From assembly GCA_001803565.1 (NCBI GenBank), contig MHDQ01000319.1:1-12258 (forward strand): a stretch of DNA of 12,258 nucleotides, in the 5' to 3' direction. This stretch comes from Nitrospinae bacterium RIFCSPLOWO2_12_FULL_45_22 (lineage in GTDB: Bacteria > 2-12-FULL-45-22). The number at the start of each line of letters is the position of its first letter. The first letter of the stretch is position 1. A program made the position numbers and the translations under genes. The notes under the pieces were generated by a model. That model worked only from the letters and a program-made list of their open reading frames with translations, was not told the origin of the DNA and made no database searches. Below are positions 2,364-4,737 of this stretch, one piece after another.

Positions 2364-2828
2364 TTGTTAGACGATCGAGATAAAGCTATTATCCAATGGT
2401 TACAAGGAGACCTCCCTTTAAAGGAGGCCCCTTATAAAGAAATAGCCGATGCCCTGGCCATGACTGAGGAAGAAGTGTTAGGAAGGATTGCCTCTTTTTT
2501 AGCCAGGGGTTATTTGCGGCGCATCGGGGCAGTCCTTTACCATCAGGAAGCTGGCTTTAAGGCCAATGCTATGGGGGTCTGGCAAGTCCCTCCTGATCAG
2601 GTAGAAAGGGTAGGGATGATCATGTCCTCTTTTACTGAAGTCTCTCATTGCTATGAACGTCCCACCACCCCGCAATGGCCTTACAATCTTTTTACCATGA
2701 TTCATGGGCGAGACAAGGAGCAATGCCAGAAAGTGGCGGAGGCTATATCGCATAAGACAGGAATAAAGGAATATCGCCTCTTATTCAGCATAAGGGAGCT
2801 AAAAAAGACCAGCATGAGCTATTTTTAA
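2364..2828 (+). CDS. ahbB: Siroheme decarboxylase subunit AhbB
   Basis: This is the partner subunit of AhbA, with the same fold: Lrp/AsnC-like HTH (about 1-60, RRIGAVLYHQEAGF) followed by the enzyme domain. The diagnostic block at 94-115 reads SHCYERP, then WPYNLFTMIHG, typical of AhbB/NirL/NirG proteins. The family acts on siroheme in the cytoplasm. The start is TTG, with AAGGG overlapping the ahbA stop (2350-2354), so the two genes are probably translationally coupled. Length (154) is normal. The downstream genes ahbC and ahbD, radical SAM enzymes that finish heme, are not in this window. The TAA stop at 2826-2828 sits inside the left copy of a 9-bp target duplication, so an element has inserted immediately after this gene without damaging it. 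Confidence 0.88.
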   Translation: MLDDRDKAIIQWLQGDLPLKEAPYKEIADALAMTEEEVLGRIASFLARGYLRRIGAVLYHQEAGFKANAMGVWQVPPDQVERVGMIMSSFTEVSHCYERPTTPQWPYNLFTMIHGRDKEQCQKVAEAISHKTGIKEYRLLFSIRELKKTSMSYF

Positions 2829-2831
2829 TTT

Positions 2832-2974
2832 GGGTGTGGCTATTTTCGGTCAGAAACCAATTAACCCTGTAGTGGCAGAGCCGGGTACCCTTTGGGTGCT
2901 ACTAGGAATGTCGAGCAAGCTCGACCACTACAAATTATATTATATAGGAGTTATGACAAAGAATAGCCACACCC
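2832..2974. mobile_element. 143-bp MITE between ahbB and moaA, with target duplication
   Basis: The ends are 21-bp inverted repeats at 2832-2852 and 2954-2974, matching at 18 of 21 positions, with the outer 13 (GGGTGTGGCTATT) identical. The nine bases outside each end are identical, TTTTAATTT at 2823-2831 and 2975-2983, as expected of a 9-bp target-site duplication. The element is too small to encode a transposase. Removing it and one duplication copy leaves ahbB and moaA 13 bp apart. A separate palindromic unit is nested inside at 2868-2932. The target is AT-rich, which slightly weakens the duplication argument, but the match is exact and abuts both ends. Confidence 0.8.
2868..2932. repeat. 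REP-like palindromic unit nested in the MITE
   Basis: TGTAGTGG (2868-2875) and CCACTACA (2925-2932) are perfect inverted ends. Inside are two hairpins: GTACCC-TTT-GGGTGC (2885-2899, with one G-T pair) and GTCGAGC-AA-GCTCGAC (2910-2925). The second hairpin with its right end matches a unit at 12039-12060 at 18 of 22 positions, so this is probably a family dispersed in the genome. Confidence 0.65.
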
Positions 2975-2993
2975 TTTTAATTTCCCTTATCCT

Positions 2994-3983
2994 ATGCTTA
3001 GTGATTCTTTTGAGCGCCAAATAGACTATTTAAGGATATCTATCACGGATCGGTGTAATTACCGTTGCCTATACTGTATGCCGGCCAATGGTATAGAACC
3101 AAAACCCCGACACCAGTTGCTGAGCTACGAAGAGACCCTTACGATTGTGGAACTCTTTGTTAAGCTGGGCTTATCTCGCTTCCGGATAACCGGTGGAGAG
3201 CCCTTAATTAGGAAAGGCCTGGTAGAACTGATAGGGGCTATAAGCCAGATAAAAGGGGTAGCAGACCTGGCCCTTACTACTAACGGAACCTTGCTGGCCA
3301 GGTACGCCCGGGCTTTAAAAGGGGCTGGGCTGAAAAGGATAAACATCAGCCTTGACTCGCTTAACCCACAAAAATATTATGAGATTACCCGGGGCGGTAA
3401 TATTCATGAAGTACTGGCGGGTATAGACGCTGCGCTGGATCTTGGGTTCTCCCCAATAAAACTAAATACCGTGGTTATCAGGGGAATAAATGATGATGAG
3501 CTGATAGATTTTGTACGTTTTGCCTCGGCTAAGCCCCTGGAGATCCGATTTATAGAATTTATGCCTCTGGGAAAAGAGGGTATCTGGAGCCCAGAAAAAT
3601 TTATCCCGGGAAAAGAGATCAGAGCCAGGATAACCAGGGAAATTCCTATAAATCCCATCACCGACACCAGAATAAAAGGTGGTGGCCCGGCAGAGTATTA
3701 CCAGATTAAAGGCTCCCCAGGAACTATTGGCTTTATTACTTCTTTGACAGAGAATATATGCCAACGCTGCAACCGGGTCCGTTTAACGGCAGATGGATAT
3801 TTACGCACCTGCCTCCTGGCCGACAGAGAGTATGATGTGAAGGCCCTTATAAGGGAGGGAGCTTCTGAAGAGGAAATATTGAGCTTTATCAGAGATGCTA
3901 TAAGGCAAAAGCCCCAGGGACGTTGCTTTAACCTGGATCAACCGCAAATATCACGCAGCCCTATGTCTGCTATTGGTGGCTAA
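2994..3983 (+). CDS. moaA: GTP 3',8-cyclase MoaA
   Basis: MoaA is a radical SAM enzyme that rearranges GTP to 3',8-cyclo-GTP, the first step of molybdenum cofactor synthesis. The product has the N-terminal cluster motif at C21, C25 and C28 and the SAM-binding GGEP at 67-70. A second 4Fe-4S site is formed by C256, C259 and C273 (CQRCNRVRL), and the C-terminal GG tail is needed for activity. Length (329) is typical. These features separate it from AhbC/AhbD, the radical SAM proteins more often found beside ahbAB. No other molybdopterin gene is in the window. The ATG at 2994 lacks a recognisable Shine-Dalgarno sequence. Before the insertion it would have been 13 bp from the ahbB stop and so probably translationally coupled; now 165 bp separate them. 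Confidence 0.95.
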   Translation: MLSDSFERQIDYLRISITDRCNYRCLYCMPANGIEPKPRHQLLSYEETLTIVELFVKLGLSRFRITGGEPLIRKGLVELIGAISQIKGVADLALTTNGTLLARYARALKGAGLKRINISLDSLNPQKYYEITRGGNIHEVLAGIDAALDLGFSPIKLNTVVIRGINDDELIDFVRFASAKPLEIRFIEFMPLGKEGIWSPEKFIPGKEIRARITREIPINPITDTRIKGGGPAEYYQIKGSPGTIGFITSLTENICQRCNRVRLTADGYLRTCLLADREYDVKALIREGASEEEILSFIRDAIRQKPQGRCFNLDQPQISRSPMSAIGG

Positions 3984-4011: not shown

Positions 4012-4683
4012 TCATTTATTAGGCGTCGTGGCCTTTTTTGTCTGGGATTTCTTTTTGGGAGTAGCCTTTTTCTTTACTTTCGCCTTGGCCCCACGGGTCT
4101 GTTTTTTTGCTTTCTCAGTAAGGCCAGAGGTCTTTTGCTTCTCCACCTTCTTTTCCGAGACAGGCTTTGTTGGCATAAGCCCTTTTATTTCCACATCTGC
4201 CGTTAAAGTATCGGCCCCTTTGTCATCACCAAACCAGGCCACCTTCTCCTGCACCATCTGGAATTGAATTTTGTACTTTCCGGGTTTTTCAGGGGCCCTG
4301 ACATTTGCTTCTAAAGTTACCTGGGCCCCGGGAAGCAGGTCAAAAGGCATACTGGTCCTATCTCCGTCCCATATTATTACATTGCCTTTATCATCTAACC
4401 AATGATACGCCAGATTAACTTCGTAACCCCCTTCTGGTCCAGGCAAATGGGGCCATGATGTATCTCCTAAGTTTTTAATAGTAACAGGTACTTTCCTGGA
4501 CTCTCCCGGTTTAAGGGTAGCAGGAATTTGACTCTCCATGAACTCGACAAAATAAGCCGTCTCGGGCAGCGGCCCTGCTACTACAGCGGGCTTTTCTTTC
4601 TTCCCTTTGCATGATGAGGTTATCAGAAATAGTCCTATTAGCAGAGATAAAACTAATATAACACCAGCAGATTTTTTCATCAT
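4012..4683 (-). CDS. Lipoprotein, four-Trp Ig-like domain and Lys-rich tail
   Basis: Function unknown. The 223-residue product begins MMKK, has a hydrophobic stretch and then SSC with Cys25, a plausible though imperfect lipobox (Thr at -3), so it is probably an envelope lipoprotein. Residues about 52-166 form a beta-sandwich-like domain with four tryptophans (W77, W95, W105, W150). Segments YHWLDDKGN, WDGDRT, PGKYKIQFQMVQE and WFGD resemble NBR1-type (four-tryptophan) Ig-like domains, often found on bacterial surface and glycan-related proteins. The last 48 residues contain 18 lysines, with repeated AK, KKK and TPKKK, like histone H1-type tails. The ATG at 4683 is preferred over the GTG at 4689 because GAGGAGG (4691-4697) lies seven bases from the ATG but only one from the GTG. 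It converges on moaA with a 28-bp gap. Confidence 0.8.
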   Translation of the reverse strand: MMKKSAGVILVLSLLIGLFLITSSCKGKKEKPAVVAGPLPETAYFVEFMESQIPATLKPGESRKVPVTIKNLGDTSWPHLPGPEGGYEVNLAYHWLDDKGNVIIWDGDRTSMPFDLLPGAQVTLEANVRAPEKPGKYKIQFQMVQEKVAWFGDDKGADTLTADVEIKGLMPTKPVSEKKVEKQKTSGLTEKAKKQTRGAKAKVKKKATPKKKSQTKKATTPNK

Positions 4684-4737
4684 ATTCACCCCTCCTCGCT
4701 ACTTGTTAATGTCATGACTTTTAAATTAATTAGGATA

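Follow-up and report, generated by a model that had tools for sequence, protein, structure and literature searches.

The window, a stretch of 12,258 nucleotides, belongs to a genome assembly of 3.67 Mb in 321 contigs, estimated to be 85% complete, and carries a heme/molybdenum cofactor gene cluster on its forward strand. This comprises ahbA (positions 1905-2351), encoding siroheme decarboxylase subunit alpha (NF040708, 175 bits), ahbB (2364-2828), encoding subunit beta (NF040707, 203 bits) with its frame and C-terminus intact, and moaA (2994-3983), encoding GTP 3',8-cyclase (TIGR02666, 381 bits). A further gene on the reverse strand (4012-4689) encodes a probable lipoprotein with a lysine-rich tail and an Ig-like domain matching N_BRCA1_IG at 25.5 bits, which is below the cut-off. 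The spacer between ahbB and moaA contains a MITE of 143 bp (2832-2974, forward strand), flanked on the left (2823-2831) and on the right (2975-2983) by exact copies of the target-site duplication TTTTAATTT, the left copy of which includes the ahbB stop codon TAA (2826-2828). Both the intact duplication and the position of the stop codon within it had been proposed in a first-pass annotation of this DNA, and both are borne out, the borders being common to other copies of the element.

The element begins with the left terminal inverted repeat GGGTGTGGCTATTTTCGGTCAGAA (2832-2855), from which a conserved left arm extends to approximately 2867, and ends with the right terminal inverted repeat on the opposite strand (2951-2974). 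When GGGTGTGGCTATTTTCGGTCA is aligned with the reverse complement of TGACAAAGAATAGCCACACCC, the first 13 bp pair perfectly and 18 of 21 positions match overall (three mismatches), so that the 21-bp inverted ends of the first-pass annotation are correct in length and imperfect in sequence. A 13-bp inverted pair combined with an exact 9-bp flanking repeat, found once in the real window, was found in none of 200 windows simulated from a first-order Markov model of the window. The element strand is predicted to fold strongly (-58.1 kcal/mol, z -6.7). No transposase gene is present within the 143 bp; the sole reading frame, of 23 codons and putatively coding (2953-3024, forward strand), begins inside the element, crosses the right border and runs over the start of moaA in a different frame. 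Plasmid records resembling the insertion region were not found.

Complete copies of 143, 131-132, 111, 106 and other lengths, with shared borders, occur elsewhere in the same genome, as do many fragments, and the 13-bp end is found 41 times exactly and 24 times with one mismatch, compared with 12 occurrences of the reversed control pattern. The 9-bp flanks are identical in six of 15 complete copies, agree at 8/9 positions in five and at 7/9 in one, and show no clear duplication in three (L003, L009 and L013); flanks mispaired between copies reached 8 or 9/9 in 13 of 210 combinations (6%). The duplications of the 11 copies with agreement at 8 or 9/9 lie nearly all at different sites, with an AT-rich target consensus of roughly AAATNATTT; thus copies with the same borders and different 9-bp duplications, to which the first-pass annotation had looked as a check, do exist. 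In one copy (L007, 1489-1499) the MITE abuts the end of a gene, whose stop codon TAG spans the junction: its T is the final base of the duplication, and its AG comes from the start of the element, where these bases are altered.

The nearest copy to that in the window lies on contig C40 (L009, C40:2527-2806) and consists of halves of 72 and 73 bp, respectively 100% and 99% identical to the window copy, such that a single base differs in all. Since this copy is one base away and the duplication in the window is intact, the insertion event looks recent, as had been suggested previously, and the near-identical sequence supports a recent burst of the element. The two halves on C40 are separated by an insert of 137 bp that starts with TACACAGCG, ends with CGCTCTGTA and bears CGTCATTCCGGC-type (CGTC) REPs.

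A candidate transposase source is present on contig C10, where a reading frame that runs off the contig scores 203 bits against the ISKra4 transposase model NF033572 over its C-terminal half, the cut-off of 205 bits being set for the whole protein and the C10 gene being partial. A distance of 25 bp separates its stop codon from the outer border of an end, TGACAAAAAATAGCCACACCC, in which 20 of 21 positions agree with TGACAAAGAATAGCCACACCC of the MITE; this is the transposase-side end only, the gene being cut by the contig end and the left end not seen. The transposon with the same ends envisaged in the first-pass annotation is accordingly seen in part, as a transposase gene with the expected end, and not as a complete element. 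No solved structures of the transposase were found. A protein search located ISKra4 elements on Calothrix and Nostoc plasmids, whose ends are GGGTGCGGCTCTT and whose duplications, ATATGATTT and TTTTAATAT, are exact; the ends of the MITE likewise begin with GGG, resembling named ISKra4 members, and compared with these elements (p-MULT 4; ISCasp3 of Calothrix and the Nostoc SO-36 element) the MITE end GGGTGTGGCTATT agrees at 11 of 13 positions. Both have exact, AT-rich 9-bp duplications, and a transposase of the family is encoded in the MITE's own genome, whereas the MITE differs in being 143 bp long and devoid of a transposase gene. Insertion upstream of sigma-A promoters is a trait of only some ISKra4 family members, and inspection of the sequences beside the 15 copies, without statistics, revealed nothing consistent in the way of sigma-A promoter-like sites. 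Published work on this transposase group gives its direct repeats as 8 or 9 bp long (PMC3942029), which fits the 9-bp duplications of the MITE copies. On the combined evidence of the C10 transposase with its matching end, the cyanobacterial ISKra4 ends and the 9-bp duplications, the element is, as judged from sequence, an ISKra4-derived MITE.

The interior of the MITE, which the first-pass annotation did not mention, is a separate REP-type repeat. This core (2868-2932, forward strand) is a GTAG-type, REPIN-like REP pair, TGTAGTGGCAGAGC...GCTCGACCACTACA, with GTAG feet and an inverted pair of hairpins, the first of which is altered in the window copy; as DNA the window core folds no better than shuffled sequences (z -1.0), compared with z -5.4 for the core of a 131-bp sister copy. 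Elsewhere in the genome the core (TGTAGTGG...CCACTACA) recurs at various sites, in some cases alone (L022, L023 and L101) and in others inside another inverted-repeat element (L104, L106, L108 and L109), which has AATTAGTTCCCACTGAAAAAT ends and holds the pair in the opposite layout. Conversely, the same MITE arms enclose a GTAACTC...GAGTTAC core at L037, L045 and L057 and a GTAGGGG...CCCCTAC core at L049. Because the core occurs outside the MITE and the same arms carry other cores, the MITE is composite. A short Y1 (IS200-like) transposase gene, RAYT-like in having GTAACTC REPs on both sides, lies on contig C37 (L113, approximately 1267-1890); for GTAGTGG, only one related palindrome was found beside a Y1 gene, on contig C141.

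With regard to the host genes, removal of the element and one duplication leaves a gap of 13 bp between ahbB and the moaA ATG at 2994, and recomputation thereby reproduced the spacing given in the first-pass annotation. That annotation also held that moaA lacks its own Shine-Dalgarno site, and indeed no such stretch precedes moaA, whereas most genes in the window have one; the 19 bp 5' of the moaA start are identical with or without the element, and therefore the insertion removed no Shine-Dalgarno site. Because the ahbB stop codon lies in the duplicated bases and these 19 bp are unchanged, the proteins encoded by ahbB and moaA are intact. The description of the two genes as an operon is, however, unproven, as is the proposed reliance of moaA on translational coupling to ahbB, and the gene pair is not conserved: moaA was found within approximately 1.5 kb of none of 29 other ahbB loci, some of which are short, and a same-order relative (G001) has a different gene in the place of moaA. 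A search for the orthologous empty site among 60 relatives and in the genome collection returned nothing usable. In the mRNA the element is predicted to form a strong stem, with the moaA start region outside it, and such a stem between ahbB and moaA would likely separate their expression in part.

Several other accounts of the spacer were considered. The strong fold, the co-directional genes on either side and a run of T residues after the right arm would all suit a regulatory RNA or terminator hairpin native to the ahb-moa locus, with the 9-bp repeat arising by chance; however, the 143-bp sequence and its relatives are present at numerous unrelated loci, where the 9-bp duplications differ, an Rfam search with the element returned no family match and a terminator scan found none at its right end. 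We regard a native riboswitch or terminator as refuted by the dispersed copies, and a native origin of any such kind as extremely improbable. Scarcely more credible is the proposal that the whole 143-bp unit was moved as a REPIN by a RAYT transposase acting through the REP core, with the arms as passengers. Whilst the core is REP-like and the genome does contain Y1 transposase genes, this is disfavoured by the 9-bp duplications, which adjoin the arms and not the core, and by copies with different cores that retain the same arms and type of duplication.

Derivation from another group that generates 9-bp duplications, such as ISLre2, is also very unlikely, even though the ISLre2 and ISKra4 groups are related (PMC3942029) and the transposase beside the matching end does score against ISLre2. 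That score is only 57 bits, as against 203 bits for ISKra4, PF06782 (UPF0236) was not found in the genome, and named members of the ISKra4 family closely match the MITE in their ends and in the type of target; ISLre2/UPF0236 was consequently rejected as the source. More room, albeit not much, may be left for retention of the insertion for host benefit, through uncoupling of moaA from ahbB, provision of a start region (the 23-codon frame) or of an RNA processing site. Promoters and RNase III cleavage sites borne by MITEs provide precedents, as reviewed in PMC10969869, and the right arm does contain AGGAG and an ATG. The AGGAG that precedes the 23-codon frame is, however, only 2 bp from its ATG, a promoter search within the element found none, the copies are scattered and diverse, as those of a selfish element would be, and the insertion in the window looks young; on balance we consider a benefit to the host unlikely.

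We are therefore highly confident in the ISKra4-group reading overall, namely that of a non-autonomous MITE mobilised in trans and carrying a REP-pair core. On this reading the MITE is a member of the ISKra4 group (p-MULT 4, Mutator-like transposases), and its GGGTGTGGCTATT ends would be recognised in trans by a transposase encoded at another locus of the same genome, in an IS of the ISKra4 family. This enzyme would cut an AT-rich target similar to AAATNATTT with a 9-bp stagger and join the element to it, resulting in duplication of TTTTAATTT. An ancestral MITE probably acquired the GTAG-type REP pair through the pair's own RAYT-type route, and the pair would now travel as a passenger. A probable source of transposase and a rule for target sites can so be assigned to this unnamed MITE family, and a puzzling spacer in the cofactor gene cluster is explained as a young transposon insertion.

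MITEs containing REPs and MITEs within operons are already known; the present family is new. The Chunjie MITE of Geobacter uraniireducens (Chen et al. 2008), to the extent that it is described in a review (PMC10969869), similarly shows insertion in an operon, conserved ends, direct repeats and several copy sizes, and differs in sequence. QMITE2 of Coxiella burnetii (PMC5896051) is likewise a MITE with a GTAG REP and has duplications of 7-11 bp, its shorter copies being essentially REPs, but its sequence is unrelated to that of the present MITE and its REP is a target of IS1111. The core at 2868-2932, with relatives outside the MITE, resembles the GTAG REP pairs described in PMC3733652 and PMC2817692, and shares GTAG feet and paired inverted hairpins with GTAG/CGTC REPs and REPINs more generally (PMC3733652, PMC3116915, PMC2817692). 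REP dimers within longer palindromes are also known (PMC3733652); unlike GTAG REPs, however, the surrounding palindrome here is an IS-derived MITE with duplications of its own, and several REP-like pairs are found in the same arms.

In a limited literature search, we did not find a description of the exchange of several kinds of REP within one set of MITE arms. Between L001 and the copies at L037, L045, L057 and L049 the arms are common and the middles differ (GTAGTGG, GTAACTC or GTAGGGG), in the manner of a reusable cassette. It is conceivable, though we think it rather doubtful, that the ISKra4-derived arms do act as such a cassette, which at least three kinds of REP pair have entered repeatedly, each of two unrelated transposition systems thereby spreading the elements of the other; repeated entry might arise because an extruded MITE hairpin offers the single-stranded target preferred by RAYT (Y1) transposases. 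The exchange provides a modest, testable lead on how REPs and MITEs may aid each other's spread. Among 60 relatives only the REP part of the element (24-29 bp) was detected, in one genome of another lineage (G039), where the 24-bp REP part is distributed over loci L061-L081 and is repeated in tandem in places (C131:30711-30758).
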